This document shows positions 46,725-60,318 of a DNA stretch of 63,204 nt, piece after piece; the first letter of the stretch is position 1, and the number at the start of each line of letters is the position of its first letter. Origin of the DNA: a virus; IMG/VR virus record IMGVR_UViG_3300030110_002592, positions 1-63,204 of that record. The stretch is one strand, 5' to 3'. The notes below the pieces were generated by a model. That model did no database searches. It was given only the letters and a program-made list of their open reading frames with translations, and was not told the origin of the DNA. Both the position numbers and the translations under genes were made by a program.

Positions 46725-46726
46725 TG

Positions 46727-46798: not shown

Positions 46799-46876
46799 TA
46801 TAAACAACATATATATCAAAGTAACCTTATTGTGCCGAGCTGAGTCTCTACAGTTACTATCTTTTTCTTCATTGTG

Positions 46877-46884: not shown

Positions 46885-46890
46885 CAAAAA

Positions 46891-47078
46891 TGTCGAGATG
46901 TCGACTTTTTCTTTCCTTACTTTACTATATATATACTTATTAACGCGATGTTTTTTTCTAATAGATTTCGGACTTAAACTCGGCATTTTCGACATTGGTT
47001 TTATAAAGTATTCTAAATCAATAAGTTATGATATGTCGACTTTTTTTTAACTCGACACAAAAATGTCGAAACTCGACA
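46891..47078. repeat. TGTCGA motif cluster A (origin/operator candidate)
   Basis: Seven TGTCGA/TCGACA hexamers occur in 188 bp: 46891, 46899, 46989, 47034, 47052, 47064 and 47073. A TTTCC then CTATATATATA tract follows the first pair, and CATTTTCGACAT sits about 98 bp from the first motif. The same order and nearly the same spacing occur in cluster B (57746-57883). It lies between a terminator and the chaperonin promoter and contains no convincing gene. Candidate iteron origin or operator array. Confidence 0.65.
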
Positions 47079-47091
47079 CAAACACTGTGAA

Positions 47092-47122
47092 ATCAATAAA
47101 AGAAAGGGGCCGAAGCCCCTTT
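47092..47122 (-). terminator. Intrinsic terminator with UUCG loop
   Basis: In minus-strand RNA AAAGGGGC, loop UUCG, GCCCCUUU, then CUUUUAUU. The 8-bp perfect stem with a UUCG tetraloop ends transcription of the 59-aa gene at 47177, before cluster A. Confidence 0.9.
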
Positions 47123-47176
47123 CAAACAAACAACTAACCCGAAGCTTTACAGCTTTGGAGAAAAAAAAAGAATATA

Positions 47177-47356
47177 TTATTTGGCTTTATTTCTAATAGT
47201 TGACATTGATTGTGCCAAGACTTGGCCTTCAGCAATCATGCTAATCTTCTTAGCTCGCTTCAACTGTTTTTTCATGTTTGCCAATTTTGTGATGCCCATC
47301 TCAGGGTCAGGCCGGCGGTTGATCTCCCGACCTTTGTACATATCTAATCCGTCCAT
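47177..47356 (-). CDS. Small basic protein (59 aa)
   Basis: MDGLDMYKGREINRRPDPEM, then GITKLANMKKQLKRAKKISM and a Met/Ser/Gln-rich end (LAQSMSTIRNKAK). Probably helical. Not recognised with certainty. It forms a unit of its own, closed by the terminator at 47092-47122, and is the first leftward gene after the divergent region. Its length just misses common cut-offs. Frame and composition look coding. Confidence 0.6.
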   Translation of the reverse strand: MDGLDMYKGREINRRPDPEMGITKLANMKKQLKRAKKISMIAEGQVLAQSMSTIRNKAK

Positions 47357-47861
47357 GATTTCAATTTTTAGTAAAGATACAAAATTTATTAGATGTGTGT
47401 AGATGTTGGGTTCCCCGAAAAAATTGTGCCGCAGTTTTAAAAAAAAAAATGATTTTATTTTGACCCTCCCCCCAAAAAAAATCTTGGTGCTTGCTGAATT
47501 TTTTTAGCTTTTTTCTAGCGTCTAGTATAGTGTACAGCGCGCGCCATTTTACGCAGGCCTGCAAGGCCCGAGCTTTGGCCCGTTCACCCTTCACTCCTTC
47601 ACCCTTCACCAACAAAAGGAGCAAAGGAGTACAGCAAAAGAAAGTAAACAAGTAATACTCTTTAAGATGTTTAAAGGGATTACTTAACCCCATCACCAAC
47701 CTAGACAAGCGTAAACATTTTAATAATATTAGGGATCTATAAACGTTTTATAATCAGAGTATAAACATATCGCCGGTAAAAGATAAATACACGCGCTATA
47801 AAAACTAGATATAAAGCTGTATATTTAAACTTTAATTAATCATTATTTAAACTTTACAACT
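47357..47861. other. Divergent intergenic region, candidate origin/early promoter hub
   Basis: A 505-bp stretch separates the leftward and rightward arms and holds no convincing gene. Visible inside: homopolymer A and C runs (47440-47480), and a GC-rich patch with the hairpin GGCCT-GCA-AGGCC at 47556-47568. Two perfect copies of TTCACCCTTCAC lie at 47583-47594 and 47598-47609. An AT-rich end with TATATTTA (47820-47827) may be the -7 of the gene at 47862. Such a boundary often holds the origin and early promoters (inference). Confidence 0.45.
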
Positions 47862-48215
47862 ATGGTACACAGTACAAGCGAAATTAAAAATGAAGCAAAA
47901 ATGCACAAAAACAATACGCATTTTGCTATACACAAGACAACTAATTCAATCGCGTTCACTTGGAATTATAAAGGATACGACAACGGCGAATTGAGCGAAT
48001 TCAAACAAGATTATTTTTATACTGACATTGAAGACAATTTTCCGCAGGAAACAATAGTTAATTCAAACGGTAAAAAAGTAAAGCTGTACAGCTACAAAAA
48101 AGACTTTAAAATAGTTACGCGCAAAAATCTAGAGCGCGCCGGTATAGATTTGAATAACTACAAATCATTTTCCACTTCTTTCTTCACTCAGGAGCAAATT
48201 AAAAACCAATATTAA
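47862..48215 (+). CDS. Hypothetical protein (117 aa)
   Basis: Not recognised. A charged, soluble protein with FAIHKTTNSIAFTWNYKGYD near residue 25 and a basic C-terminal part (KKDFKIVTRKNLERAGIDLN). First gene of the rightward arm, with an A/T-rich leader ending TTTACAACTATGG. Codons such as CGC, GCG and GCC are commoner than in most of the genome, as in the next four genes. Possibly an early, host-directed protein. Confidence 0.6.
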   Translation: MVHSTSEIKNEAKMHKNNTHFAIHKTTNSIAFTWNYKGYDNGELSEFKQDYFYTDIEDNFPQETIVNSNGKKVKLYSYKKDFKIVTRKNLERAGIDLNNYKSFSTSFFTQEQIKNQY

Positions 48216-48226
48216 AATTCACAGCT

Positions 48227-48391
48227 ATGAAAAAGACCACATTTAAAAAGGCTGTTTTGAATCTATTATTAGGGTTTAGCGTTATTAATTTAACGCTGAC
48301 TCTTTTAATAGGTGAGCAGCTTATGACTTTGGCAAGTGTTTACTTTTTACTCACTTGCTTTTTATTTTTTACACGTTACAAAATGGCTTAA
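48227..48391 (+). CDS. Small two-helix membrane protein (54 aa)
   Basis: A basic start (MKKTTFKKAV) is followed by two hydrophobic stretches (LNLLLGFSVINLTLTLLIG and LASVYFLLTCFLFF) and an RYKMA end. Positive residues at both ends suggest both termini are in the cytoplasm. It lies 11 bp after one gene and 2 bp before the next. Might be a superinfection-exclusion or membrane-acting early protein; no direct evidence. Confidence 0.55.
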   Translation: MKKTTFKKAVLNLLLGFSVINLTLTLLIGEQLMTLASVYFLLTCFLFFTRYKMA

Positions 48392-48393
48392 TT

Positions 48394-48702
48394 ATGATTT
48401 ACTACAATGATTTAAAATTTAAGACAAAAGAGCAATTTATCGCTTATTTTAAAACTGACTTACTTGTCTATCCTGACGGCATTTCCACAGACTACGACCT
48501 GTATAAATACGCGCTTACAAATGAATATATAACCGTAATTGAACGCGCTCCCAAATGTGTAGGACAGGGTGAAATGATGGCTTTACAGTCATACGGCAAA
48601 TTAATTGCCGGTGATTGGGTTATTGATATGGACTACGGCGTTTTATATTGGAGTGGTCAGGAGTGGACACAAAAAAATAATATATCAATTTTACCACATT
48701 AA
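48394..48702 (+). CDS. Hypothetical protein (102 aa)
   Basis: Start placed at 48394 (MIYYNDLKFKTKEQFIAYFK), because the upstream frame extension lies inside the membrane-protein gene. The protein is soluble, with LTNEYITVIERAPKCVGQGE and WVIDMDYGVLYWSGQEW. Not recognised. Part of the CpG-rich cassette 47862-50067. Confidence 0.6.
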   Translation: MIYYNDLKFKTKEQFIAYFKTDLLVYPDGISTDYDLYKYALTNEYITVIERAPKCVGQGEMMALQSYGKLIAGDWVIDMDYGVLYWSGQEWTQKNNISILPH

Positions 48703-48713
48703 AAAAAAGAGTT

Positions 48714-49565
48714 ATGATAGACTTAAAAGAACTTCAAAAAAACAACACGGTAAAAACAAAAGAGCTTCCCGTGTTTCTAGAAAATTCAATTCAGGGATCT
48801 AAAATAAAGAAATTGCCGCGCGTAGTGTTTAAACACGGCGCGAACGTTCTAGTATTTAGATACGGGACAACGGCAAATGATAAGATTTGCGCTGACAAAA
48901 AAAAGAAAATAGTTCAGACGTACACGTTCAGCCGGTCGCAATTCGATTATATTTTAAACATTTTAAAAACCGGCGGCAAAGCGAACGCCAAAGACTTTTT
49001 TAGTATAGCGGACACAAATTGCCTAGACTGTGTTTTTAATTCATACGGTTTATGCTATACGCACAAATACACACAGTACAGCGGGTTTATATCCATGTTA
49101 AAAAGTATTTGCAAGGGCTTTGACAGCTTTGAAAGTTTACCATCTTTAAATGATGAAATTAAAAAACAGCTATTCAATCAGGCTTTTAATACCTACGTGC
49201 GCTTTGGCACATACGGCGAACCGTCCGCAATTCCTATTGATTTAGTAGATACTATTTGCTCCATTAGTGAAACGTGGACAGGCTACACGCATCAATGGGT
49301 AAGGCGCACCGAATACGCGCCCTATTTTATGGCTAGTGTACATAATACACATCAAGAAAGTATGGCGCATAAAAAAGGATTCAGGGCGTATATAGCTACA
49401 GAGGACGAAATTGACGGTTTTATCCAATGTCCGGCAAGTAAAGAAGCCGGTTATAAAAGTTCATGCGCCGCGTGTGGTTTATGTTCCGGCGCTCTAGGCG
49501 CTAAGAATATCCGCAAATTAATACAGCGCCGCGACAATACAAGCGTTAAAATATTTGTTCACTAG
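48714..49565 (+). CDS. Gp88-like conserved phage/plasmid protein (283 aa)
   Basis: The C-terminal half has the segments VRFGTYGEPSAIPIDLVDTI, TWTGYTHQWVRRTEYAPYFM and FRAYIATEDEIDGFIQCPAS. It ends with a cysteine cluster, CAACGLCSGALGAKNIRKL. A middle pair NCLDCVFNSYGLC adds cysteines. This G(T/S)YG(D/E)P-x-A-(I/L)P ... YTHQW pattern belongs to a family seen in phages and plasmids, including mycobacteriophage gene 88; its function is unknown. The cysteines suggest an iron-sulfur or zinc site. It ends at a strong terminator (49585-49622). CpG-rich codons are unlike most of the genome. Confidence 0.65.
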   Translation: MIDLKELQKNNTVKTKELPVFLENSIQGSKIKKLPRVVFKHGANVLVFRYGTTANDKICADKKKKIVQTYTFSRSQFDYILNILKTGGKANAKDFFSIADTNCLDCVFNSYGLCYTHKYTQYSGFISMLKSICKGFDSFESLPSLNDEIKKQLFNQAFNTYVRFGTYGEPSAIPIDLVDTICSISETWTGYTHQWVRRTEYAPYFMASVHNTHQESMAHKKGFRAYIATEDEIDGFIQCPASKEAGYKSSCAACGLCSGALGAKNIRKLIQRRDNTSVKIFVH

Positions 49566-49584
49566 TTCGATTAATTACCAATTC

Positions 49585-49622
49585 AAAGCCCGTTCTGATT
49601 CATTTCAGACGGGCTTTTTTAG
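49585..49622 (+). terminator. Intrinsic terminator after the Gp88-like gene
   Basis: AAAGCCCG(T)TCTGA, loop TTCATT, TCAGACGGGCTTT followed by T-run and TAGGT. The second half is shared with terminators at 51417 and 52988. Confidence 0.9.
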
Positions 49623-49662
49623 GTAAGTACATTATTTATTCATGCATAAAAAAAGAAGCATT

Positions 49663-50067
49663 ATGAAGGCTAAAATTATTAAAATGATTATCAACACAGC
49701 GCACAAAATAGACCTTAAAAACGGCAATTTGCGCACCTATGACTATGAAACAGCTCCGTATTGTGGGCATCATTACAACGGTGCCACCGGCAAGTATTAC
49801 TTTTCAGATTATTTTGAAGGATACGGCGCCGAGTGGGCTAATTTTTACGGGTTTATATTTATATATGCCAATGAAGACAAGGAGTATATATGTCGGTACA
49901 AATTTCCTTATAAGCTAGAATTACGGCTGTTTTGGAACGGCGATAAAATCCTCAGTTGTTCAATTTTTGACTTAAAAAGGGTCGGCAATTTCATTAAAAT
50001 ATGGTGGCTGTTGTTCAGGATAAAACGGCAAGCCTTACAAATAAATTTGAAAATTGACAAACTTTAA
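49663..50067 (+). CDS. Hypothetical protein with membrane-like C-terminal region (134 aa)
   Basis: Start chosen at 49663, where a purine-rich AAAAAAAGAAGC precedes ATG; an in-frame ATG lies 21 bp earlier. The N-terminal half is soluble and Tyr/Gly-rich (YDYETAPYCGHHYNGATGKY). The C-terminal third is basic and aromatic (VGNFIKIWWLLFRIKRQALQ), possibly a membrane-binding helix. Not recognised. Lies just after a terminator, so it needs its own promoter. Last gene of the CpG-rich cassette. Confidence 0.55.
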   Translation: MKAKIIKMIINTAHKIDLKNGNLRTYDYETAPYCGHHYNGATGKYYFSDYFEGYGAEWANFYGFIFIYANEDKEYICRYKFPYKLELRLFWNGDKILSCSIFDLKRVGNFIKIWWLLFRIKRQALQINLKIDKL

Positions 50068-50082
50068 TTAATTTTACATTTT
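50054..50082 (+). promoter_or_regulatory. Bacteroidota-type promoter before the 50110 gene
   Basis: TTG at 50054-50056, an 18-bp spacer, then TACATTTT at 50075-50082. The -7 differs from TAnnTTTG only in its last base. The element overlaps the end of the preceding gene and leaves a 28-bp A-rich leader. Confidence 0.4.
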
Positions 50083-50109
50083 ATGAACATTAATTAAACA
50101 TACTAAACT

Positions 50110-50544
50110 ATGGAGTTAAAACTGAGCAAAAAAGAAAGTGAAGAGTATTTTTACAATGCCCTTTGCAACGGCTTAGATTGGTTGTGCGGCATGAATGACT
50201 TAAGCATTCATTACAGTAAGGCGCACTACAAGCAAGCTAGAGAAAAGTTAGCACAGAAATTACAAGACGGTCACGGCGAAGGTCAATGGGCTATCTGCTT
50301 TGAAGATGTGCTAATGCAGATACTAAGGGACGGCAATCCTTTAACGATTATTGACCTAGAGGCAAGTGTTGAGGGTGAGAAGCCTTCAGGTTACACGCGC
50401 ACCATCAGAATTAAACACGTACACAAGCGAGTTGGCAAAACTCAGCTAAACCATTTATTGGACATGGTCAACCAACAAGACGATGCCATCACGGCAGACG
50501 TTATTTTACAGCAAGTATTTTTTAAAGAAATAATTTTTGGATAA
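50110..50544 (+). CDS. Hypothetical protein (144 aa)
   Basis: A soluble mixed protein: MELKLSKKESEEYFYNALCN, LDWLCGMNDLSIHYSKAHYK, then WAICFEDVLMQILRDGNPLT. Segments of this kind occur in conserved phage and bacterial hypothetical proteins, but I cannot name a function. Its stop TAA shares bases with the next ATG (TAATG), so the two are coupled. A promoter candidate lies upstream. Confidence 0.65.
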   Translation: MELKLSKKESEEYFYNALCNGLDWLCGMNDLSIHYSKAHYKQAREKLAQKLQDGHGEGQWAICFEDVLMQILRDGNPLTIIDLEASVEGEKPSGYTRTIRIKHVHKRVGKTQLNHLLDMVNQQDDAITADVILQQVFFKEIIFG

Positions 50545-51260
50545 TGAAACTAACTACAGACAACAAGGCTATGATTAAGAGATATCTTAACTCATTTGCA
50601 AATACCCACAACCTTGACTACAACTCAGACAAGGGGGAGTTTTTAAACAAGTATCACATCGATGCTTTAATTAAGGGACTAGAGGACGCCTCTCTTCTTC
50701 ATATCGGTAATACTAATCCTTTAGATATGAAAAAGTACATTGTAATTGACACATGGAACGGTGAAGGTTATTCATCTGACAATGGTACAGATACCAAACA
50801 GTTTGATTGCAAAGAAGAGGCATTCAAATGGGCATATGAAAGGGCATTATCAAATACTGCTCCCATAGATACGAAAAAGTACCCTGAACAGGTAGGTCAA
50901 TACAGCGATTCTAATTGGTTTAAAGGCGAGCCTAAAAGCAACGGCGATGGCTATTGGTTTGAAGGTTACGATGACAATCACGGTAGTTATCAAGTTTGGG
51001 AAACAGACAATGTGTATGCAATTATGATACAATGCAATGTTAATGAGGTGACAGTACTCACGAAAGAGGAGTACGTGGAACAGATACAAACTCTAGATGA
51101 AGACATCAAGACCCATATTAAAGAGAACAAAGATAATCCCTATGCCATCACTAACATGGAAGAGTTAGTTAGTATAGAGTCCAATGGTGACCGTTTCTGC
51201 CATCAGTTCGATGACTACGATTATCAGTTCAGGTTGATTCAAAATTTAAACAAACAGTAA
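50544..51260 (+). CDS. Hypothetical acidic protein (238 aa)
   Basis: An acidic soluble protein. KKYIVIDTWNGEGYSSDNGT (about residues 62-81) opens a domain with several aromatic and Gly residues, followed by DGYWFEGYDDNHGSYQVWET. No catalytic motif is clear. Coupled to the genes before (TAATG) and after (stop overlapping the ATG at 51260). Early accessory gene by position. Confidence 0.65.
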   Translation: MKLTTDNKAMIKRYLNSFANTHNLDYNSDKGEFLNKYHIDALIKGLEDASLLHIGNTNPLDMKKYIVIDTWNGEGYSSDNGTDTKQFDCKEEAFKWAYERALSNTAPIDTKKYPEQVGQYSDSNWFKGEPKSNGDGYWFEGYDDNHGSYQVWETDNVYAIMIQCNVNEVTVLTKEEYVEQIQTLDEDIKTHIKENKDNPYAITNMEELVSIESNGDRFCHQFDDYDYQFRLIQNLNKQ

Positions 51261-51394
51261 TGAATATGTACAAGATAAAAGGAACTAATAAAATGGTAGC
51301 GGCTCAGAGCCGCTATCATGCGTTGGCAGAGTTTAAAAAGAGTGGACTAAGCGTTACACTCTCTGATGTCATAAAAGTTATTTACCGGCGTTAA
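51260..51394 (+). CDS. Small protein with internal palindrome (44 aa)
   Basis: MNMYKIKGTNKMVAAQSRYH then ALAEFKKSGLSVTLSDVIKV and IYRR. It begins at the stop of the preceding gene (TAATG) and is followed by a terminator. The coding sequence holds the near-perfect palindrome AGCGGCTCAGAGCCGCT at 51298-51314, which could affect translation or stability. Not recognised. Confidence 0.5.
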   Translation: MNMYKIKGTNKMVAAQSRYHALAEFKKSGLSVTLSDVIKVIYRR

Positions 51395-51416
51395 AAACAC
51401 TTGTCTTGATCCGAAC

Positions 51417-51446
51417 AGCCCGTAGCCATTTGGCACGGGCTTTTTG
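51417..51446 (+). terminator. Terminator, first copy of a duplicated pair
   Basis: AGCCCGT-A-GCC, loop ATTT, GGC-ACGGGCT followed by T-run. Almost identical to the terminator at 52988-53017, including the bases GGTGCTA after the T-run. Confidence 0.9.
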
Positions 51447-51490
51447 GGTGCTAGGCGAGATTGCTTGGCGGCTTTTAAACAACTAAAATT

Positions 51491-51670
51491 ATGGCACTTT
51501 TAATAGAAAAATTAGAACATGAAATGCTAACAGATGATGAACGCATGGACAAGAAATCAGCACGCCTGAAGAGGACATATGAAACGGCATCTGATAAAGA
51601 AAAAAAGCTTATAGATGATATTTTTATAACCATCTGCGGCTACAGTTTACAAACACTTATAAACAAATAG
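51491..51670 (+). CDS. Small helical protein (59 aa)
   Basis: MALLIEKLEHEMLTDDERMD, then KKSARLKRTYETASDKEKKL and a Cys-containing tail. Charged and probably helical. First gene of the cassette bracketed by duplicated terminators; two bp before the next gene. Not recognised. Falls just below common length cut-offs. Confidence 0.55.
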   Translation: MALLIEKLEHEMLTDDERMDKKSARLKRTYETASDKEKKLIDDIFITICGYSLQTLINK

Positions 51671-51672
51671 AT

Positions 51673-51975
51673 ATGGAATCGAATAAAATTATAGCAGAAT
51701 TTATGGGTGCAGTAGGCACACCTAAATACAATCCTACAGAGTGGGATATATACATAACGGGGTGCTTAGATGTGGACTCAGATAATGAAAACGCAAAACA
51801 CTTTTATACACCTGAAGAAATGCAGTACCACACCTCTTGGGATTGGTTAAAGCCTGTGTTGGACAAGGTTTGGAGCATGGAGGGCGGCGCCCGTGCAGTA
51901 TGTGTAGATTGGTCAGACTCTCATGAAGAAGTATATAATTCAATATTAGATTTTATTAAAGACTTAAACAAGTAG
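51673..51975 (+). CDS. IAEFMG/SWDWL family protein, copy 1 (100 aa)
   Basis: NKIIAEFMGAVGTPKYNP at the N terminus, TSWDWLKPVLDKVWSMEGG in the middle and VYNSILDFIKDLNK at the end. The same three blocks occur in the next gene, so the two are tandem paralogues. The family is common in Bacteroidota phages and prophages but has no assigned function. The SWDWL-x-PV core suggests a small protein-protein interaction domain. Two bp separate the copies. Confidence 0.7.
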   Translation: MESNKIIAEFMGAVGTPKYNPTEWDIYITGCLDVDSDNENAKHFYTPEEMQYHTSWDWLKPVLDKVWSMEGGARAVCVDWSDSHEEVYNSILDFIKDLNK

Positions 51976-51977
51976 AT

Positions 51978-52319
51978 ATGGAAAAGGAAAACAAATTAAT
52001 AGCAGAATTTATGGGTATGCAAAAGACCGATTTAGGTTGGTACGATTCAGAAGCATCTATGAGCGAATACGCCTATTCAATGGAGGGCGGTAATACTTTT
52101 GAAGAATTGCACTACGATAGGTCATGGGATTGGTTAATGCCGGTAGTGGAAAAGATTGATGAAGTATCAAATGATAATACTCTATTTAAAATAGAACACA
52201 ATCGTGCTTTTATAGAAGATACAGAAAACTATCATGTCTTAATTGATGTAATGGCAAACTCAAGACTTGACGCTACTTACCAAGCAGTAGTAGAATTTAT
52301 TAAAAACTTAAATAAGTAA
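51978..52319 (+). CDS. IAEFMG/SWDWL family protein, copy 2 (113 aa)
   Basis: NKLIAEFMGMQKTDLGWY, RSWDWLMPVVEKIDEVS and TYQAVVEFIKNLNK align with the three blocks of the preceding gene. The middle differs and has an added SMEGGNTFEELHYD segment. It lies 2 bp from each neighbour, so it is expressed with copy 1. Divergence between copies shows an old duplication. Function unknown. Confidence 0.7.
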   Translation: MEKENKLIAEFMGMQKTDLGWYDSEASMSEYAYSMEGGNTFEELHYDRSWDWLMPVVEKIDEVSNDNTLFKIEHNRAFIEDTENYHVLIDVMANSRLDATYQAVVEFIKNLNK

Positions 52320-52321
52320 AC

Positions 52322-52969
52322 ATGGACTATTCAGCAAAAATACAATGGCTAGACAACGGCAAGATTGAAGATGTGGTAATAACCACAGATGAACAACATA
52401 AAGATTATGATAACATTTTCTTTTATTTTCACTCAGTACATGAGATAAGAGAGTATATGGTTTCAGATAAAAATGAGTTTAAAATATTGCAATATTCTGT
52501 GATTTTTGAACCCGTTAAAGTTAACATTTCCACTCAAGTAACCAATTTAGAACAATGGACTTTAAGCTTGAATGAAACTAAATCATTTTGTGACTACCTA
52601 CGCGGCGCCGAGCCTTCATTACGTGACAAATCGGATTTAGAGATATTAAGAATAATAGAAGCCAATACCTATAAATATAACGACCTGATGCGTTCGTGGT
52701 TGTATGACAACTTAGAAGAGCCATTGGAGCAGTTAGTAGGCGAGAAAGGGGCTTGCGTATCTTTTAAAGACAGGGATTTTAAAAAAAGCCTTTATGTTGA
52801 TGAAGGTCATATGCATGGCATTAAATATTATACAGAGTCCGAAGCGATTAGCGTTATAAGGGATATCATTAAAGAAGACAAAGACATTCGCGTTGGTGCT
52901 GAAGATAAACTAAGTGATGACCAAATCCTTGATTTAGGCGCAAAGTGGTATTCAATTCATAAAGAATAA
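52322..52969 (+). CDS. Hypothetical protein (215 aa)
   Basis: A soluble acidic protein. An N-terminal part with KIQWLDNGKIEDVVITTDEQ is followed by a helical region (SDLEILRIIEANTYKYNDLM) and a C-terminal SVIRDIIKEDKDIRVGAEDK. Nothing catalytic is recognised. Last gene of the cassette; the second terminator copy follows its stop by 19 bp. Confidence 0.6.
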   Translation: MDYSAKIQWLDNGKIEDVVITTDEQHKDYDNIFFYFHSVHEIREYMVSDKNEFKILQYSVIFEPVKVNISTQVTNLEQWTLSLNETKSFCDYLRGAEPSLRDKSDLEILRIIEANTYKYNDLMRSWLYDNLEEPLEQLVGEKGACVSFKDRDFKKSLYVDEGHMHGIKYYTESEAISVIRDIIKEDKDIRVGAEDKLSDDQILDLGAKWYSIHKE

Positions 52970-52987
52970 ACTAATCCGTCTTCAGAC

Positions 52988-53017
52988 AGCCCGTAGCCGC
53001 TTGGCACGGGCTTTTTT
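52988..53017 (+). terminator. Terminator, second copy of a duplicated pair
   Basis: AGCCCGT-A-GCC, loop GCTT, GGC-ACGGGCT followed by TTTTTT. Differs from 51417-51446 in only a few bases. It closes the cassette 51491-52969; the next small gene begins 8 bp after it. Confidence 0.9.
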
Positions 53018-53024
53018 AGGTGCT

Positions 53025-53156
53025 ATGAAGAAGGTAAATGATATAAAGCAAAGGATGCGCTCAGAGTTCGTGAAACTGTGGCACAAAAGGAGTGTACATA
53101 AGAATAAAACCAAATATACTCGCAAAAATAAACACAAAAAGAAATATTATATTTAA
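53025..53156 (+). CDS. Tiny very basic protein (43 aa)
   Basis: MKKVNDIKQRMRSEFVKLWH then KRSVHKNKTKYTRKNKHKKK and YYI. An amphipathic helix followed by a Lys-rich tail, typical of a nucleic-acid-binding microprotein. It starts just after a terminator and its stop is 2 bp before the next gene. Coding status is likely from position, but not sure. Confidence 0.45.
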   Translation: MKKVNDIKQRMRSEFVKLWHKRSVHKNKTKYTRKNKHKKKYYI

Positions 53157-53158
53157 AG

Positions 53159-53350
53159 ATGCTGTACGGAAAAATATATAAAGTAACTAGGCTTGATGAA
53201 TTCGCCCATGACATAATGGACTTGGGATTGACGAAAAAAGAAGCCGTAAAGAAAGTAAAGGAATATAAAAAGCTAGACCCTGACGGCGGCTATGGTATTG
53301 AGCCTATGAAGGCTTATGAGATATTATCACACTTAAAAACAAACAAATGA
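53159..53350 (+). CDS. Hypothetical protein (63 aa)
   Basis: MLYGKIYKVTRLDEFAHDIM, then LGLTKKEAVKKVKEYKKLDP and a short end. A small helical basic protein. Overlaps the next gene by 4 bp (ATGA). Not recognised. Confidence 0.6.
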   Translation: MLYGKIYKVTRLDEFAHDIMDLGLTKKEAVKKVKEYKKLDPDGGYGIEPMKAYEILSHLKTNK

Positions 53351-53562
53351 CTACTAAAACTTTAAAGACAGAAATTATAGACTACCTAAAGGCTTTGGAT
53401 GTAAAGCCGGATGACAAAATTGGTGGCAACTCATGCGTAGGAGATTTACTAATTTCAATGCCATATATGCAAAACGATGATCTAAGTCACGTTAGAGATA
53501 TACTTGCAGAAACGTATATCAAATACCACATGACAAAATATTTATTGGAATCTTACAATTAG
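53347..53562 (+). CDS. Hypothetical protein (71 aa)
   Basis: MTTKTLKTEIIDYLKALDVK, then KIGGNSCVGDLLISMPYMQN and a helical C terminus. Coupled to the previous gene through ATGA and 5 bp before the next. Not recognised; soluble and probably alpha/beta. Confidence 0.6.
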   Translation: MTTKTLKTEIIDYLKALDVKPDDKIGGNSCVGDLLISMPYMQNDDLSHVRDILAETYIKYHMTKYLLESYN

Positions 53563-53567
53563 GAATT

Positions 53568-53720
53568 ATGGTAAAGAAAGGAATAGCTTACAAAGACATA
53601 AACGGCGAATACACCACCACTTTCAGGGTGTTTAAAAGTGAAGAAGATTTTAGTAATTGGTACGACAATATGAGCAAAAGCGGGTTTAAAATTATCTCAA
53701 TTATCGATTGTAATAATTAA
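53568..53720 (+). CDS. Small beta-alpha protein (50 aa)
   Basis: MVKKGIAYKDINGEYTTTFR then VFKSEEDFSNWYDNMSKSGF and KIISIIDCNN. The strand-turn-strand-helix-strand pattern looks like a complete tiny domain. Its start follows the preceding stop by 5 bp. Not recognised. The next promoter lies in its last bases. Confidence 0.55.
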   Translation: MVKKGIAYKDINGEYTTTFRVFKSEEDFSNWYDNMSKSGFKIISIIDCNN

Positions 53721-53739
53721 ACATTATTTTGTATTTTTG
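53708..53739 (+). promoter_or_regulatory. Bacteroidota-type promoter with perfect -7 (TATTTTTG)
   Basis: TTG at 53708-53710, a 21-bp spacer and TATTTTTG at 53732-53739, a full match to TAnnTTTG. The leader then reads CAACAAACAACTAACTAATT before the ATG at 53761, without a Shine-Dalgarno sequence. Confidence 0.65.
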
Positions 53740-53760
53740 TCAACAAACAACTAACTAATT

Positions 53761-54111
53761 ATGATTACTAAAAACGACATATCATTAAACCCTAAAAGAT
53801 TTATTCAAAAGCTTGAGGCCATTGAATGGAGGAAAGTTGATAACGGGACTTTAATTGATGAAGAGGGTTTATGGTCTATGCGCCCTTCAACAAAATATCA
53901 GCGTAGCCATGTCAACAACAAGTATTACATTCAGCTTTTGTTACACATAATGTACAAGGGCGAAATAGTAATGACATGGGGATGCTTAAAAGAAGACCAA
54001 TCTGACTTGTTAGGGTGGTATATGCGTACCAAACAGAAAATCCAAGACATGAACTACTCCGCCAAAACAATAGCATACAACGATGGTAAAAGATTGTGGG
54101 ACAGCATTTAG
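53761..54111 (+). CDS. Hypothetical protein (116 aa)
   Basis: MITKNDISLNPKRFIQKLEA, then WSMRPSTKYQRSHVNNKYYI and LLHIMYKGEIVMTWGCLKED. A basic-aromatic, mixed alpha/beta protein. Not recognised. First gene of a new unit, with a good promoter upstream. The unit runs to the gene at 54804-55148. Confidence 0.6.
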   Translation: MITKNDISLNPKRFIQKLEAIEWRKVDNGTLIDEEGLWSMRPSTKYQRSHVNNKYYIQLLLHIMYKGEIVMTWGCLKEDQSDLLGWYMRTKQKIQDMNYSAKTIAYNDGKRLWDSI

Positions 54112-54391
54112 TCAGGAAAAATCAGTATATAATTTTGTAGGACAGAAACCACCTCGCCCTCAACAGCTATTGAATCAGGTTGTTTATGACGGGGACTTAC
54201 TTTTATCGGCTGTCGAGAAAATTAAAAACGAAGCGGATGATGTAGTTATAAATACCTCTTCTGCTTGTGTTGAAAAAGATGGCAAAATTATATTTGTGAC
54301 CGCCAAGGAAGAGTGGTCATTTCGCGAATTACTATTCAATTTTATTTTAAATTACATAGAGTGTTTTACAGACATAGGTGGAAAGAAGTAG
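54083..54391 (+). CDS. Hypothetical protein (102 aa)
   Basis: Starts 29 bp inside the preceding gene if ATG at 54083 is used; no later ATG fits. Core: LLLSAVEKIKNEADDVVINT, SACVEKDGKIIFVTAKEEWS and FRELLFNFILNYIE. The middle looks like a small alpha/beta domain. Not recognised. The start may be a non-ATG codon further downstream. Confidence 0.5.
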   Translation: MVKDCGTAFSQEKSVYNFVGQKPPRPQQLLNQVVYDGDLLLSAVEKIKNEADDVVINTSSACVEKDGKIIFVTAKEEWSFRELLFNFILNYIECFTDIGGKK

Positions 54392-54537
54392 AGCTTACTG
54401 CATTAAAAAAGCTTCTTCAGCAAGGGCGCATAAGTGCTTTAGCCTATGGTAGAAGGAAGCGCATCTTAATGAATCAAATCAAGAAAAATGATAATAGAAA
54501 TCTCAAATCCCAAGGGGGAGGCAATAGCGGAAATTAG
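54313..54537 (+). CDS. Possible small basic protein overlapping both neighbours
   Basis: A frame with only GTG starts (54313 or 54361) encodes WKEVELTALKKLLQQGRISA and LAYGRRKRILMNQIKKN, a plausible basic helical protein. It covers the 96-bp gap between the genes at 54391 and 54488, which supports it. It overlaps both neighbours by more than 45 bp, which is against it. Start and reality are uncertain. Confidence 0.35.
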   Translation: MVISRITIQFYFKLHRVFYRHRWKEVELTALKKLLQQGRISALAYGRRKRILMNQIKKNDNRNLKSQGGGNSGN

Positions 54538-54817
54538 TATTCCTAATTTCAAAGACGTTCGTTGCATAACTAGACTTAAAAATTTAAAAGAAACGGATCT
54601 AAAGTTAGATCAATTTGGTGATGATGAGGTTGTATGCCTATCCTTGATTGACCCTGATGCGACTTACAAAAGCAAAAGAGAACGGCTGTTGCCCGTAGAA
54701 AATGCCATAAGGTATTTTGAGCATCATAAAGTAATGGCGATGTTAAAGCCGGACGAACAAATTCACATTAATGAATTAATTAAGTACGCTAAAAGTTATT
54801 TAAATGAAGATAAGTGA
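54488..54817 (+). CDS. Hypothetical acidic protein (109 aa)
   Basis: MIIEISNPKGEAIAEISIPN, then DDEVVCLSLIDPDATYKSKR and a helical end (IHINELIKYAKSYLNEDK). Looks like an N-terminal beta sheet followed by helices. Not recognised. Overlaps the next gene by 14 bp. Confidence 0.6.
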   Translation: MIIEISNPKGEAIAEISIPNFKDVRCITRLKNLKETDLKLDQFGDDEVVCLSLIDPDATYKSKRERLLPVENAIRYFEHHKVMAMLKPDEQIHINELIKYAKSYLNEDK

Positions 54818-55148
54818 TATAATTTATGATGAAATTTTGGAGGAGAAAATGAGGAAGCAACGCTCCAAACAATACATACAAAAACTACAGCAATACGTAG
54901 GTTTAACCGTTAACCTTGGCGAGGTAATGGAAGAAACTGCTCGACTTATGCATCCTGACAAGTATAAACATTTGTATGGCAAGCAAGCGAAGGAAACGGC
55001 AGAACAAACCAATTTTGTATTGGTTTATATGGGCAATTATAAGATAGATATTCTCAAGTCAGGAGGGTATTATTTTAATGGCCAATTGTATAAAGATTTA
55101 AAAGAAGCACAGTCCACTTTGGTTAAAGTATTTAAACAAAAGTTATAA
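54804..55148 (+). CDS. Hypothetical basic protein (114 aa)
   Basis: MKISDIIYDEILEEKMRKQR, then VNLGEVMEETARLMHPDKYK and KQAKETAEQTNFVLVYMGNY. Mostly helical, basic. Not recognised. Last gene before the promoter at 55167 that starts the replication-protein unit. Confidence 0.6.
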   Translation: MKISDIIYDEILEEKMRKQRSKQYIQKLQQYVGLTVNLGEVMEETARLMHPDKYKHLYGKQAKETAEQTNFVLVYMGNYKIDILKSGGYYFNGQLYKDLKEAQSTLVKVFKQKL

Positions 55149-55166
55149 TTTTAATGTACATTTTAT

Positions 55167-55174
55167 TAACTTTG
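55167..55174 (+). promoter_or_regulatory. -7 promoter element TAACTTTG before the DnaA-like gene
   Basis: TAACTTTG fully matches TAnnTTTG. A -33 element is not clear. The transcript would start near 55181 and give the DnaA-like gene (55265) a leader of about 85 nt, longer than other leaders here. Confidence 0.5.
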
Positions 55175-55264
55175 TGTTAAGACAAACTAACCTTATGGAT
55201 GACATTATAAAAGAATGCCTCAGTAATATACTGACGGCTTATCCCTCAATAAAAAACAAGCAAA

Positions 55265-55567
55265 ATGAAAAAAGAAGTATTCACGGCTCTGATGGACGTA
55301 GTGGCAAATCGGTTCGATTTATCTCCGTCACAGATGCTAACAAAAACAAAGTCAAGAACAATAGTAGATGCACGACAGATTCTGTGGTGGGTAGCAAAAA
55401 AAAGAAACATTAGAGTGGTAGCACAACAAGAGTATTTAAAAGATATGGGTTTTGATGTGACTCACTCAACGATAATTCATGGCATCAAGCAAGCGCAAAA
55501 GCTTATAGATGCTGATCCTGACTATAAAAAACTAATCAACGATGTTAGAGGAAGCAATGTGGCATAA
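55265..55567 (+). CDS. DnaA domain IV-like DNA-binding protein, first copy (100 aa)
   Basis: Contains RTIVDARQILWWVAKKRNIR, then DMGFDVTHSTIIHGIKQAQK. This matches the DnaA domain IV layout: basic helix with xxDAR, spacer helix, then the G-x-x-(R/V)-(D/T)H-(T/S)T-(V/I)-x-H signature helix that reads the DnaA box. There is no AAA+ domain, so it is only the DNA-binding part. It may recognise the phage origin or compete with host DnaA. It heads the recombination/replication genes and has a promoter upstream. A second such protein is encoded at 62613. Confidence 0.72.
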   Translation: MKKEVFTALMDVVANRFDLSPSQMLTKTKSRTIVDARQILWWVAKKRNIRVVAQQEYLKDMGFDVTHSTIIHGIKQAQKLIDADPDYKKLINDVRGSNVA

Positions 55568-55925
55568 TGGTACGTTACACGTTTCAGACGGTACTACTAG
55601 TGAGTTTTTTTTAAATGGCATTAAGATGACCTTTGATGGTAATGAGTGCAAAATATACAACACTACCTTTGGAGATTACTATAGAGATATAACCTCTACG
55701 GTGCTTCCACAATTGCAAGAAAAAGGTTGGGTTGTAGGTGTCTATGACATATCATTAGAAAATTATCAACGCAAACTAAAAACTGTTGAAACCTCTATAA
55801 AAGAAGCGTTAAACAATGGTAATAATACCAAAAAACTAAATAGTTTAAAACAGTCTAGGTCAAGACTAATTAAGTCTTATGCAAAGATTGTAAAGAAAAA
55901 AAGAGATTACATTAATAAATTATAA
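55557..55925 (+). CDS. Hypothetical protein (122 aa)
   Basis: Start set at 55557, where AGAGGAAGCA precedes the ATG; an in-frame ATG exists at 55542. An N-terminal beta part (LHVSDGTTSEFFLNGIKMTF) is followed by a long basic coiled coil (KLKTVETSIKEALNNGNNTK and on). Overlaps the DnaA-like gene by 11 bp and precedes the annealing protein by 12 bp, so it is co-expressed. It may be a partner of the recombination proteins, but nothing specific is seen. Confidence 0.6.
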   Translation: MWHNGTLHVSDGTTSEFFLNGIKMTFDGNECKIYNTTFGDYYRDITSTVLPQLQEKGWVVGVYDISLENYQRKLKTVETSIKEALNNGNNTKKLNSLKQSRSRLIKSYAKIVKKKRDYINKL

Positions 55926-55937
55926 AACTTAGTAACT

Positions 55938-56546
55938 ATGGCAACAACTAAAAAGAATTATTACACCGAGTTATCACAAATTGATATCAGCGGTAAGATT
56001 GAAAAGAAAGGAAAGTTTGATTATCTATCATGGGCTAGTGCATGGGATATGTTAAAGAAGATGCATCCTGATGCAAATAGAATTATCTATGAACATGAGC
56101 ATAGTGGACTGCCAATATTTCCTCTTAACAACTCTGCACAAGTAAAGGTGGGAGTTATTGTAAACGGAATAGAGCATATTGATATGCTACCTATTATAGA
56201 CTTCAGGAATAATGAGATTCCTTTGGAAAAGATAGGAACAATGGATATCAACACAGCCATTCAAAGAAGCACAGCAAAGGCTATAGCAATGCATGGTCTT
56301 GGATTGTCTTTATGGATAGGTGAAGATGTTAAGGCTGTAGCAGAGGAAAAGAAGCCTCAAGCTGTCGTTAATAAAAGCAAAACACTAACCCTAGATATTG
56401 GCGATGCCAATTGGACAAAGGTGTTGAGTTATGTTTCTGACAACAAAAAGTTAGGGCTTGATAAGATAGTAACTCAGCTAGAGCGCAAGTATAAGATTAC
56501 TGCCAAAGTAAAGAAAGAAATACAAACTGCAGTAAACTCTAAGTAA
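55938..56546 (+). CDS. Single-strand annealing protein, Sak/DUF1071 type (202 aa)
   Basis: Promotes annealing of complementary single strands in phage recombination. The signature FDYLSWASAWDMLKKMHPDA (residues about 29-48) is that of the Sak (DUF1071, SSAP_Sak) family. It is followed by VKVGVIVNGIEHIDMLPIID and DINTAIQRSTAKAIAMHGLG, where family members carry the conserved helix. The C-terminal 60 residues are Lys-rich. Its stop shares bases with the start of the RecE-like nuclease (TAATG). The pair works as exonuclease plus annealing protein. SSB follows. Confidence 0.85.
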   Translation: MATTKKNYYTELSQIDISGKIEKKGKFDYLSWASAWDMLKKMHPDANRIIYEHEHSGLPIFPLNNSAQVKVGVIVNGIEHIDMLPIIDFRNNEIPLEKIGTMDINTAIQRSTAKAIAMHGLGLSLWIGEDVKAVAEEKKPQAVVNKSKTLTLDIGDANWTKVLSYVSDNKKLGLDKIVTQLERKYKITAKVKKEIQTAVNSK

Positions 56547-57298
56547 TGCTGACGAATATTACAAACAAGAAAAAGGTCATTGAAACGCTAGGCGATGACA
56601 ATGACTACTACGGAGTATTTGGAAAAAATTATTTTTCTCAAAGCGATATAAAAGTGTTGTGTCAGAACCCGGTAGCCTTCAAAGGTGGTGGGTTCGAAAC
56701 TAAAGAGTTGTTGATGGGTAAATACTTTCATCAGCTCATGTTAGAGCCGGAGAAGTCAGCAGACTTCCCGGTTCTAAATGTTTCTTCACGAAACACAAAA
56801 GCCTACAAAGAGGCCCTTGAACACAATAACTTTAAGATGATTATGCTTGAGCATGAAAAAAAATCTGTTGAAGAATGGGTGTCTGCTATGAAGCGTAATT
56901 TAAAAATCTATGACCTCATTTATGATGACAACAATCGATTTGAGGTTCCTGAAGTTAAAATAATAAATGGATATGCTTTTAAAGGTAAAGCTGACATCAT
57001 TAGCAATGATTATGTTATTGATCTAAAAACTACTAGCAATGTCCATGACTTCCCTTGGAGTGTAAGGAAATACTACTATGATGTACAAGGCTATATATAC
57101 AGAGAGTTATTTGGTAAGCCTATTATGTTTATTAGTATAGACAAAACCAATCACATGATGGCCAAAGATACTCTTAACGAAAATAGTTATGAGCAAGGTC
57201 GTATTAAATTACAAAAGGGATTAGAAAATTATGAGAAATTTTTTGGGAAAAATTCTGTCGAAAACGCCGAAGATTACGTTATCGAAAGAGAAATATAG
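56546..57298 (+). CDS. RecE-like PD-(D/E)XK exonuclease (250 aa)
   Basis: Resects double-stranded DNA to give 3' single strands for the annealing protein. Motifs: YFSQSDIKVLCQNPVAF near the start, LMGKYFHQLMLEP (residues 54-66), then GYAFKGKADIISNDYVIDLK followed by TTSN, where Asp of KAD and Asp-x-Lys of VIDLK form the PD-(D/E)XK active site. YYYDVQGYIYRELFG gives the QxxxY motif. This layout matches exonuclease VIII-like enzymes. Coupled to the annealing gene by TAATG. Confidence 0.85.
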   Translation: MLTNITNKKKVIETLGDDNDYYGVFGKNYFSQSDIKVLCQNPVAFKGGGFETKELLMGKYFHQLMLEPEKSADFPVLNVSSRNTKAYKEALEHNNFKMIMLEHEKKSVEEWVSAMKRNLKIYDLIYDDNNRFEVPEVKIINGYAFKGKADIISNDYVIDLKTTSNVHDFPWSVRKYYYDVQGYIYRELFGKPIMFISIDKTNHMMAKDTLNENSYEQGRIKLQKGLENYEKFFGKNSVENAEDYVIEREI

Positions 57299-57419
57299 AA
57301 AAAACACTCTTCATATCTGCGTTCCACAGGTATTCAAGAGTGATGCTGACAAGCATAAGTTTATAGTCAGCACTTTATCTTTTTTGGAACAAAATATTAA
57401 AACTTTTGAAAATGAGTAA
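57231..57419 (+). CDS. Possible small basic protein between nuclease and SSB
   Basis: A frame that fills the 113-bp gap encodes KYRKNTLHICVPQVFKSDAD, then KHKFIVSTLSFLEQNIKTFE. Its stop overlaps the SSB ATG (ATGAGTAA), the coupling common here. It overlaps the end of the nuclease gene by 68 bp if the first ATG is used. The C-terminal part reads like a genuine protein; the start is uncertain. Confidence 0.4.
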   Translation: MRNFLGKILSKTPKITLSKEKYRKNTLHICVPQVFKSDADKHKFIVSTLSFLEQNIKTFENE

Positions 57420-57687
57420 AGACGAAATCATTTTTGCAGACGGTTTTTCATTTAAGAGAAATGAAAATGCACCGGACTTTGTTATTGGGAATGTATCAAT
57501 TAAAGTTGATGATGCTGTTCCTTTTGTTAAAAAACACGCTAACGCTAATGGGTGGGTAAATTTATCTATCCTTGTTGGCAAGCAAAATGGCAAGCCATAT
57601 TTAAAATTAGATACGTTTAATCCCGATCCATCCAAAGCTAAAGCTACTATCTTGGATGAAGGTGAGGATGACGATATGCCATTCTAA
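57412..57687 (+). CDS. Small SSB-like protein with acidic tip (91 aa)
   Basis: ATG at 57412 is used; a TTG codon lies 6 bp upstream. The body is a compact beta protein (FSFKRNENAPDFVIGNVSIK, then VNLSILVGKQNGKPYLKLDT). The C terminus is EGEDDDMPF, nearly the SSB tip DDDIPF that binds partner proteins. Bacterial SSB is about 170 aa, so this is a shortened form with an OB-like core and little linker. It follows the annealing protein and nuclease and precedes the primase-helicase, all consistent with a ssDNA-binding role. Confidence 0.72.
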   Translation: MSKDEIIFADGFSFKRNENAPDFVIGNVSIKVDDAVPFVKKHANANGWVNLSILVGKQNGKPYLKLDTFNPDPSKAKATILDEGEDDDMPF

Positions 57688-57694
57688 TTCTGTA

Positions 57695-57735
57695 AAGGGG
57701 ACTGTGTTTATACTTGGCGCAGTCTCCTTTTTTTT
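57695..57735 (+). terminator. Intrinsic terminator after the SSB-like gene
   Basis: AAGGGGACTG, a 15-nt loop and CAGTCTCCTT, followed by a run of T. One G-U pair. It ends the recombination operon 7 bp after the SSB stop and separates it from cluster B. Confidence 0.85.
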
Positions 57736-57745
57736 ATGCCAACAA

Positions 57746-57883
57746 TGTCGAGTTTTTTATTTCCCTATATATATATAATACACGTATTTTATTTATATAC
57801 TTTTTTTATTTTATTTTGGGTTTCAACTTGACATTTTCGACATCTTATTGATAATCAACACTTTAATCGACATAAAATCGACA
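57746..57883. repeat. TGTCGA motif cluster B (origin/operator candidate)
   Basis: Hexamers TGTCGA (57746) and TCGACA (57837, 57867, 57878) occur within 138 bp. A weaker ACGACA sits at 57899, inside the primase gene. TTTCCCTATATATATA follows the first motif, and ACTTGACATTTTCGACAT occurs at 57826-57843, as in cluster A at 46978-46995. The last two repeats form ATCGACATAAA tandem units. It lies between a terminator and the primase-helicase start, so it should control or start replication. Confidence 0.65.
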
Positions 57884-57888
57884 TAAAA

Positions 57889-60318
57889 ATGACACAAAAC
57901 GACACTAACCTAATTACTATCTTTCAGAACATAAAAGAAACAGACACTCCATTCCATAGAGATGTACTTCATATTTTAACACGCGTAAAGAATGGTAACA
58001 GCAAAAATCTCGTAAAACAAATACGAGCGGAGAGCAATAAAGAACTGAGAAACAATCTGAAAAAACAACTACCGGCCATATGTTTTAGTGGTGTATTTAC
58101 TAAACGTTTAGACACCGCCATCACAGAACATAGTGGATTGATATGTTTGGATTTCGATGGCTATAAATCTAAGAAGGCTTTGCTTTCAGATAAGCAGAAG
58201 CTTAGTGAAAACAAGTTTGTTTTTTCAGTATTCATTAGTCCTTCCGGCATGGGCCTGAAGGTATTGATAAAAGTACCCAAGGATGTAGACAACCACAAAA
58301 ACTACTTCAATAGTTTAGAGAATTATTTCAACTCTCCTTACTTTGATAAAAGCGTAAAAAATGTGGGCCGCGTATGTTATGAAAGCTACGACCCGCTTAT
58401 AAATATAAACGTTAACTCTAGTTTGTGGGATAAGATAGATGAAGAAAGCTATGTAGAGATAGATAAAAACTCAGGATATGCAACGATCCCTATTTGTGAT
58501 GAGAACAAGATTATAGAAATCTTAGTAAAGTGGTGGGAGAAAAAATACCCAATGATAGAAGGACAACGGAATCAAAACACTTATGTGTTGGCCTCTGCCT
58601 TTAACGATTTTGGTGTAAACAAAAGTTTGGCTGAGTATGTGATGGCAAATTACACAACTCGCGGGTTCACCATAAACGAAATAAAAAGAACCATAGATAG
58701 CGCCTATGCTCAAAAGCAAAACTTCGGAACAAAAGTGTATGAAGATGTAGAGCAGATGAATGTACTTAGACACAAGATGGCGAAGGGTGCATCTAAACAA
58801 GACATAAAAGAACACCTGCAGTTCTGCGACATGAATCCTATGGAAGTAAATAATGTGATAAGCAGAGTTGAAGAGGAACAGGCCAATAGTTTTTTTTGGA
58901 CTAAAACAGATAAGGGAACGATAAGGATAGTCCATTATTTATTTAAAGACTTCCTTGAAGAGAATGGGTTTTATAAGTACTGTCCTCCCGGGTCAAAGAA
59001 CTATGTGTTTGTTAAGGTTACTAACAATCTTATAGACCATACAAGTGAAAAAGATATTAAAGATTTTGTCCTTCAGTATTTACTAGACAAAGAAGATATG
59101 TCTGTGTACAATTACTTCGCTGACAATACACGTTATTTTAAAGAAGACTTTCTTACGTTACTTGCAAGCATAGATGTTTATTTTATTGAAGACACCAAAA
59201 GCTCTGCGTACTTGTACTATAAAAATTGTGCAGTAAAAATTACCAAGAGTGAGATAGTCCCTATAGACTATTTGGATTTGGGTGGTTATGTTTGGAAAGA
59301 CCATGTCATAGATAGGAATTTTGACATTTGTGATGTTGGTGAATGTGATTACAAAACTTTTATCTCTCGCATCTGCAACGGTGATACAAGCAGAATTAAA
59401 AGCATGGAGTCTACTATAGGATATATGTTACATGGATATAAGAATCTATCCTTTTGTCCCGCCACTATTTTAAATGACGAAACCATTTCTGATATGCCGG
59501 AGGGTGGTACAGGAAAAGGTATTTTTATTAATGCTTTGAGTCAAATGAAAAAAATAGTCGTGATTGATGGGAAGAGTTTTACATTTGAAAGGAGCTTCGC
59601 ATATCAGCTTGTATCGGCTGATACTCAAGTCTTATGCTTTGATGATGTGAAAAAACATTTTGACTTTGAGAGATTGTTCTCAGTAGTTACTGAGGGATTG
59701 ACATTGGAAAAGAAAAACAAAGATGCTATTAAGATACCATTTAACAAGTCTCCAAAAATAGCTATCACCACTAACTATGCTATAAAAGGAAAGGGCAATA
59801 GCTTTGAAAGAAGGAAATGGGAATTGGAATTACATCAACATTATTCTAAGGATTATACTCCTTTAGATGAGTTCGGAAAGTTAATGTTTGGAGATTGGAA
59901 TGATGAAGAGTGGTGTGGCTTTGACAACTACATGGTTAATAATTTACAGTCTTATCTGAATACAGGATTAATAAAAAGCAAGTTTGTAAACTTAAAAATT
60001 CGTAAGCTTAGTGCTGAAACGTGCCATGAGTTTATAGAGTGGTGTGGTCTGATAGATGGACATGATGCCAACAATATGCTCAAGCATAATGAGAAGATAT
60101 ATAAACAGGAACTGTACTTTGATTTTATAGATGAAAACCCTGACTTTGGGCCAAAAAGTAAGATGACTATTAGTAGAGCAAAGTTTTACAAATGGTTAAT
60201 TAGTTATGCAAATTATAAGTATGGTGTCCTTCCTGAGGAAGGCAGAGACCCTAAGGGAAGATGGATTATTTTTAAGCTTAAACCGGAGAATGAAGATTTT
60301 AATATCTTAGACTTCTAA
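57889..60318 (+). CDS. Primase-helicase: VirE-N/BT4734-type primase plus SF3/D5-like helicase (809 aa)
   Basis: The N-terminal part (about residues 55-190) has HSGLICLDFDGYKSKKAL and FSVFISPSGMGLKVLIKV, the VirE-N/BT4734 form of the archaeo-eukaryotic primase fold. A middle helical part, YPMIEGQRNQNTYVLASAFN, resembles primase C-terminal domains. The C-terminal NTPase has Walker A EGGTGKGIF (about 543-551), Walker B TQVLCFDDV and an SF3 motif C, KIAITTNYAI. It should prime and unwind at the phage origin, using host polymerase. It begins directly after cluster B, and the operon continues rightwards across the genome junction. Confidence 0.9.
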   Translation: MTQNDTNLITIFQNIKETDTPFHRDVLHILTRVKNGNSKNLVKQIRAESNKELRNNLKKQLPAICFSGVFTKRLDTAITEHSGLICLDFDGYKSKKALLSDKQKLSENKFVFSVFISPSGMGLKVLIKVPKDVDNHKNYFNSLENYFNSPYFDKSVKNVGRVCYESYDPLININVNSSLWDKIDEESYVEIDKNSGYATIPICDENKIIEILVKWWEKKYPMIEGQRNQNTYVLASAFNDFGVNKSLAEYVMANYTTRGFTINEIKRTIDSAYAQKQNFGTKVYEDVEQMNVLRHKMAKGASKQDIKEHLQFCDMNPMEVNNVISRVEEEQANSFFWTKTDKGTIRIVHYLFKDFLEENGFYKYCPPGSKNYVFVKVTNNLIDHTSEKDIKDFVLQYLLDKEDMSVYNYFADNTRYFKEDFLTLLASIDVYFIEDTKSSAYLYYKNCAVKITKSEIVPIDYLDLGGYVWKDHVIDRNFDICDVGECDYKTFISRICNGDTSRIKSMESTIGYMLHGYKNLSFCPATILNDETISDMPEGGTGKGIFINALSQMKKIVVIDGKSFTFERSFAYQLVSADTQVLCFDDVKKHFDFERLFSVVTEGLTLEKKNKDAIKIPFNKSPKIAITTNYAIKGKGNSFERRKWELELHQHYSKDYTPLDEFGKLMFGDWNDEEWCGFDNYMVNNLQSYLNTGLIKSKFVNLKIRKLSAETCHEFIEWCGLIDGHDANNMLKHNEKIYKQELYFDFIDENPDFGPKSKMTISRAKFYKWLISYANYKYGVLPEEGRDPKGRWIIFKLKPENEDFNILDF

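Follow-up and report, generated by a model that had tools for sequence, protein, structure and literature searches.

Paired origin-like elements with DnaA-box-like repeats and an IHF consensus in a family of uncultured aquatic phages

Phage iteron origins, which are served by an initiator or a primase-helicase, are exemplified by lambda O and by the satellite P4 with its ori plus crr. The order of elements in the left half of Escherichia coli oriC is DUE, R1, IHF site, and R5M (PMC5742627), and the DnaA box is TTATCCACA (PMC6669920). The bacterial basal unwinding system (BUS) consists of tandem DnaA boxes with DnaA-trios, three or more in number, behind them (PMC8287927). The two phage elements described here, A on the groEL side and B before the primase gene, resemble the left half of oriC and datA in that an AT-rich tract, a DnaA-type box, an IHF site, and another box follow in the same order (PMC5742627), whereas they differ from both in having a TTATCGACA-like box, tandem pairs with periods of 9 and 11 bp, and two copies per genome. 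In contrast to oriC, the candidate binder in the phage is DnaA domain IV alone. The elements resemble the BUS in their close tandem boxes and in a distal group of boxes at a distance of about 90 bp; NTN-type sequence follows the tandem boxes in many of them and may correspond to the trios, but the phage encodes no AAA+ DnaA, and its trio-like repeat overlaps the IHF consensus. Phage R1 and R2 point away from the AT-rich tract, whereas R1 of E. coli oriC is oriented otherwise relative to its tract. As in the iteron origins, the repeats lie at or in a replication gene, and P4 likewise has two repeat-sharing cis sites several kilobases apart; however, the candidate binder of the phage elements is a separate DnaA domain-IV protein, each copy contains an IHF site, and A lies beside groEL.

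The window, that is, the whole stretch of DNA analyzed (63,204 nucleotides; positions 1–63,204 of the IMG/VR virus record IMGVR_UViG_3300030110_002592), encodes a portal protein, a large terminase, GroEL/GroES, a primase-helicase, an exonuclease, and the annealing protein Sak. Among annotated genomes, the nearest to it is MW202828.1, a circular podovirus genome of 60.9 kb from Manatee Spring. The host is likely a flavobacterium-like member of the Bacteroidota, because further matches of the primase in the phage collection included, among others, flavobacterial and Bacteroides phages. Searches of the window revealed no tRNA and no phage-encoded HU/IHF, full-length DnaA, integrase, or DnaB, and no Rfam family was found in 46500–58200. 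The GC skew tracked gene direction in the window and was therefore dropped as an origin marker. A leftward ORF of 4,202 amino acids (1350–13958) makes up one-fifth of the window and had no Pfam match at E 0.001. The phage-encoded GroES and GroEL genes (44498–46394) are kept beside element A in relatives, and a lone rightward gene within the leftward block (44059–44532) shows a weak likeness to phage transcription regulators (phrog_17028 and phrog_12817); a relative carries the annotation "repressor protein".

The features of both elements and of the surrounding genes are listed in Table 1. An initial annotation of the window had described B as a second copy of the layout of A, and all of the words it named were located: TGTCGA at 57746 is followed 91 bp later by the TCGACA of R2 at 57837, TATATATA lies at 57766–57770 in B and at 46926–46928 in A, and tandem TCGACATAAA units at 57867 and 57878 precede the primase gene, whose start codon (57889) is contained in a further ATGACA unit. 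The spacing of 98 bp given for A (46891 to 46989) was also reproduced, although its difference from the 91 bp of B reflects only which of the two left boxes of A is counted, the distance from the inner inverted box (46899) to R2 being 90 bp. The annotation was likewise right about two like-ordered sites, which are separated by 10.85 kb and not by 10.7 kb as it had stated. The local alignment of A with B scored 45.5, compared with 17.0 ± 3.0 for dinucleotide-preserving shuffles (n = 1000), the maximum of which was 33.5, with 0 of the 1000 reaching the real score; the objection that the annotation had foreseen, a match no better than that of shuffled AT-rich sequence, thus does not hold. The earlier description had not picked up the IHF consensus that separates the two pairs of boxes on the right. 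Of the 19 TCGACA/TGTCGA words in the 63-kb window, 11 fall inside the elements (seven in A and four in B), and the A+T contents of the two tracts compare with 64% for the whole window. The composition of the B tract is kept among relatives, whereas its sequence is not.

Table 1. Positions of elements A and B, their parts, and associated genes in the window.
Feature	Position	Strand	Remarks
Large terminase gene	31495–33744		
GroES	44498–44755		
GroEL-like chaperonin	44739–46394	-	leftward gene adjoining element A in relatives
Bacteroidota-type -7 box TATATTTG, leftward	46877–46884	-	abuts A's left boxes; candidate groEL-side promoter
Element A	46891–47078	+	order and strand as B; 5' of leftward groEL operon
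A left inverted box pair	46891–46904	-	TGTCGA at 46891 and 46899
A AT-rich tract	46905–46979		75% A+T
A tandem boxes R1, R2	46980–46994	+	R1 TCGGCA (46980); R2 TTTTCGACA (46986–46994)
A IHF consensus	47016–47028	+	AATCAATAAGTTA; starts 27 bp after R2 start, 10 bp beyond common B spacing
A right-hand boxes	47034–47078		TGTCGA 47034, TCGACA 47052, TGTCGA 47064, TCGACA 47073
C1	55265–55567	+	stand-alone DnaA domain-IV protein, 100 aa; upstream of Sak
Intrinsic-terminator-like hairpin and T-run	57696–57735	+	gene upstream of B; conserved in relatives
Element B	57737–57904	+	outer left box to last box within primase gene
B left inverted box pair	57737–57751	-	TGCCAA 57737–57742 (weak), TGTCGA 57746–57751; 9 bp apart; column conserved in relatives
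B AT-rich tract	57752–57827		83% A+T; CTATATATATA, then T-rich; candidate unwinding region
B tandem boxes R1, R2	57828–57842	+	R1 TTGACA (57828); R2 TTTTCGACA (57834–57842); 9-bp period
B IHF consensus	57853–57865	+	WATCARNNNNTTR (PMC8407004), here AATCAACACTTTA
B tandem boxes R3, R4	57867–57883	+	TCGACA; 11-bp period
Box-like units ATGACA, ACGACA	57889–57904	+	within first primase codons
Primase-helicase	57889–60318	+	BT4734-like_N, DUF5906; phrog_28855; gene abuts element B
C2	62613–63131	+	172 aa; N-terminal DnaA domain IV (DHTT kept) and long helical tail

An alignment of 61 non-redundant primase-upstream regions yielded one common layout, in which the upstream gene's terminator comes first, then a pair of inverted boxes (consensus ATGACGAAAATGTCAA) and an AT-rich tract of about 80 bp, followed by tandem boxes TTGACAT-AA-TCGACA (9-bp period), the block AATCAATAAGTTA, and tandem boxes TCGACATAAAATCGACAT (11-bp period) that extend into the start codon. 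The initial annotation had also proposed that the combined pattern be sought in related genomes, where it was indeed recovered. An HMM profile trained on B elements only, and thus containing no A, detected A of the window at 46890–47078 (50.7 bits, E 9.2e-14), and in each of the 34 records whose upstream region was considered, the same profile found exactly one A-type copy, upstream of B and in the same orientation (E about 1e-26 to 1e-9), with A-to-B distances of about 9–15 kb. A pattern made of motifs only (box pair, 6–20 free bases, and IHF-like block) was then scanned against 2.9 million viral contigs of IMG/VR and matched 111 stretches, 80 of which were kept. Seventy of these lay in an A context (beside groEL) and 10 in a B context (beside the primase); none of the 80 lay outside both contexts. 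The elements are fixed in spacing, at 9, 16–17 or 27, 11, and 11 bp, and the motif scan returned lengths of 38, 39, and 49 only, though 37–51 were allowed. In a 257-Gb genome collection, a looser pattern matched a single contig of 11.8 kb, which carries the phage's primase, groEL, Sak, and C1. This contig, JAAGZR010000166.1 (L268, L269), sits in a MAG labelled Aliivibrio sp., which is probably a binning error and not a host record. Among 80 contigs bearing the primase, ten (L003, L004, L006, L008, L016, L018, L023, L033, L039, and L068) stop in the 200 nt just before the primase gene, compared with none in the adjoining 200 nt and two in the 600 nt beyond. Element B is present at this place in nine of the ten, whose ends either have a biological cause or come from breaks of the assembly in low-complexity DNA.

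The block between R2 and R3 matched the IHF consensus exactly in 63 of 83 non-redundant elements and with at most one mismatch in 76, compared with exact matches expected after shuffling of 1.6 in the A set and 1.8 in the B set (about 3.4 overall). Its degenerate positions vary only as the consensus permits (W = A55/T21, R = A54/G22), and B of the window holds the consensus while the NNNN and flanks depart from the block of the family. AATCAATAAGTTAG had at first been taken for a promoter, but this interpretation was abandoned, since the sequence agrees with the IHF consensus at every position and does not match TANNTTTG. The distance from R2 to the IHF site was mostly 16–17 bp; one set of A elements, to which that of the window belongs, had 27 bp. 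This step of 10 bp, one helical turn, suggests phasing; the inserted bases are alike and may stem from a single event. IHF proper is best known from proteobacteria, and the HU/IHF homologues of the hosts may not read this consensus.

The R2 consensus of the elements is one base off the DnaA box. Among 72 R2 boxes, which read TCGACA preceded by T (in 69), T/A, and A/T, position 6 was G in 67; A7, C8, and A9 did not vary among the 72, because the search pattern prescribes ACA. Two proteins of the window, C1 and C2, are candidate binders of this box. The Pfam profile of DnaA domain IV (Bac_DnaA_C, PF08299) gave 39.5 bits for C1 and 43.2 bits for C2, with a cut-off of 31.5, and DnaA chains were the top matches for each of them in PDB profile searches. 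DnaA_C matches were present in 42 of the 42 relatives' records searched, 35 of them above the curated cut-off. The predicted model of C1 (pLDDT 91) aligned over 93 residues to 1j1v, the complex of domain IV of E. coli DnaA with its box, with a Z of 14.6 (next unrelated fold, 6.0), and the N-terminal half of the predicted C2 model gave a TMt of 0.84–0.86 to 1j1v/3pvp. According to its model, the whole of C1 is a DnaA domain IV and nothing else. The recognition motif D433-H434-T435-T436 reads KDHTT in C2 and THSTI in C1 of the window and varies among relatives. Thus, C1 and C2 match the family and predicted fold of domain IV, and C2 retains DHTT, but they differ from bacterial DnaA in being free-standing, without domains I–III, and C1 has HSS/HST in place of DHTT. 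No match to the AAA+ domain III (PF00308) was found in the window, with positive controls detected. A search for relatives with C2 alone, which is too variable, found none. DnaA_C matched three times in one record (L046, record G017), and two of these matches fall in ORFs that lie upstream of the primase. A literature search returned nothing on a stand-alone phage DnaA domain IV or on such paired elements, an absence that is weak evidence.

The initial annotation had offered a shared regulator or paired origins, which proved to be the right pair of alternatives. The conservation of the elements, their fixed internal spacing, the IHF consensus, the likeness to the DnaA box, and the co-occurring DnaA domain-IV proteins argue for paired origins with a shared binder, with pure regulation as the main rival. 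We therefore favor the reading that A and B are paired, IHF-organized, origin-like modules recognized by C1/C2, rather than having a pure operator role, and assign it a probability of about 0.6. An origin also fits better than a simple promoter because the strand of the element is the same at both sites, although A lies in leftward-transcribed and B in rightward-transcribed surroundings. From the sequences we infer that C1 and/or C2 bind the variant DnaA box [T/A][T/A][A/T]TCGACA, present as tandem pairs flanking the IHF site and as the inverted pair beyond the AT-rich tract. A host protein of the IHF/HU family would bend the IHF site and thereby draw the two pairs of boxes on the right to each other, the AT-rich tract would open, and the phage primase-helicase or the host replisome would be loaded, so that replication would start at the elements. 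C1 and C2 could not melt DNA as DnaA does, because they lack an AAA+ domain, and the window encodes no such domain elsewhere. Proteins of this kind, consisting of domain IV but no ATPase, would mark the origin, and melting would be carried out by the primase-helicase or host DnaA, the former being the probable opener of the origins. The same protein probably also regulates the groEL and primase operons, as suggested by boxes that overlap the primase start codon in B and abut the candidate leftward groEL-side promoter in A. Against the origin reading, variation at position 6 of the box, where G or A occurs, covaried with C1 and C2 no more than with the control proteins, and among C1, C2, primase, Sak, exonuclease, and helicase no protein stood out in this comparison, which is confounded by relatedness. 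The missing AAA+ domain, the orientation of R1 and R2 away from the AT-rich tract, the GC skew that merely follows the genes, and the want of a recognizable element before the primase in L065 and L082 likewise speak against it.

If A and B were instead operators of a two-site regulon, C1/C2 would be only transcription regulators of the groEL and primase operons, IHF would be architectural, and replication would start elsewhere. The box positions just mentioned are in keeping with this, and in A the leftward promoter pattern TTG N17-23 TANNTTTG, which the boxes abut, was found in 11 of 33 cases compared with 1.3 in shuffles. A primase promoter is expected near B, since a conserved terminator precedes B, and DnaA is described in one source as also being a transcription factor (PMC8203912). 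However, this Bacteroidota-type promoter pattern was not enriched in B on either strand, the right side of A faces the terminator of a leftward gene in the window, the element keeps its strand while the flanking genes change direction, and a plain operator does not need a long conserved AT-rich spacer. We consider this explanation unlikely, though it deserves serious attention. A small leftward ORF begins about 250 bp to the right of A in most records; rightward transcription there is conceivable, since a rightward tRNA-Arg(TCT) gene lies directly to the right of A in three relatives (L121:9863-9935, L137:4184-4258, and L151:10479-10553).

It is improbable that the origins are served by full-length host DnaA and that C1/C2 compete with it or modulate it at those boxes. 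The single-base difference from the DnaA box would suit such a role, as would the trio-like NTN runs after R2, which resemble those of the bacterial unwinding system (PMC8287927) and reached at least four in 42% of cases compared with 6% of shuffles, and at least three in 51% compared with 15%. These runs, however, overlap the IHF block, whose conservation could explain them; TTATCCACA was not found anywhere in the window, the only two TTATNCACA boxes of the window both lie outside A and B, and the change from C6 to G is retained across the family. We give very little credence to a role in packaging (as a cosB-like site), in partition, or in site-specific recombination, even though the contig ends clustered upstream of the primase could be taken in favor of such a role. 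Lambda cosB and attP, too, have an IHF site flanked by repeated binding sites. Both elements, however, are far from the terminase gene, and there are two copies per genome; the window yielded no integrase, and most contigs run on across A as well as B. The contig ends are scattered over the AT-rich tract and the boxes, as would be expected of breaks in the assembly.

Were the paired-origin reading true, a large family of uncultured aquatic phages would have a sequence-defined, testable origin, DnaA domain IV could, on its own and with its own box, serve as initiator or as origin-recognition factor, and the phage would offer a natural two-origin replicon separating the roles of box, bend, and helicase. 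More tentatively, it is possible that this widespread phage family took the DNA-binding domain of DnaA apart from the ATPase, shifted the box by one base so that the host origin is no longer read, and with a host DNA-bending protein runs two like origins on the same strand, the first located at the chaperonin operon and the second at the primase-helicase. The oriC-like architecture itself is known; the shifted box and the dismembered DnaA would apparently be a new variation. The motif is specific enough to recognize family members from DNA alone, as all 80 kept viral loci were in context. There is also a hint that the classical IHF consensus may be recognized by the hosts' own proteins of the HU/IHF family, a matter that bears on the Bacteroidota.

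The elemo phages, the nearest isolates considered, were dropped as a model, since both the element and DnaA_C were missing from the first 30 kb of NC_055853, the half of the genome that was searched and that contains the primase; this joint absence is in keeping with the origin reading. L065 and L082 had no recognizable TCGACA element before the primase, though C1/C2 were present. L082, a distant relative with both C1 and C2, carries differently worded pairs, TGACACTTATGACA and TGTCATTTCCGTCA, upstream of its primase at 3183, which are possibly the same architecture with another box.
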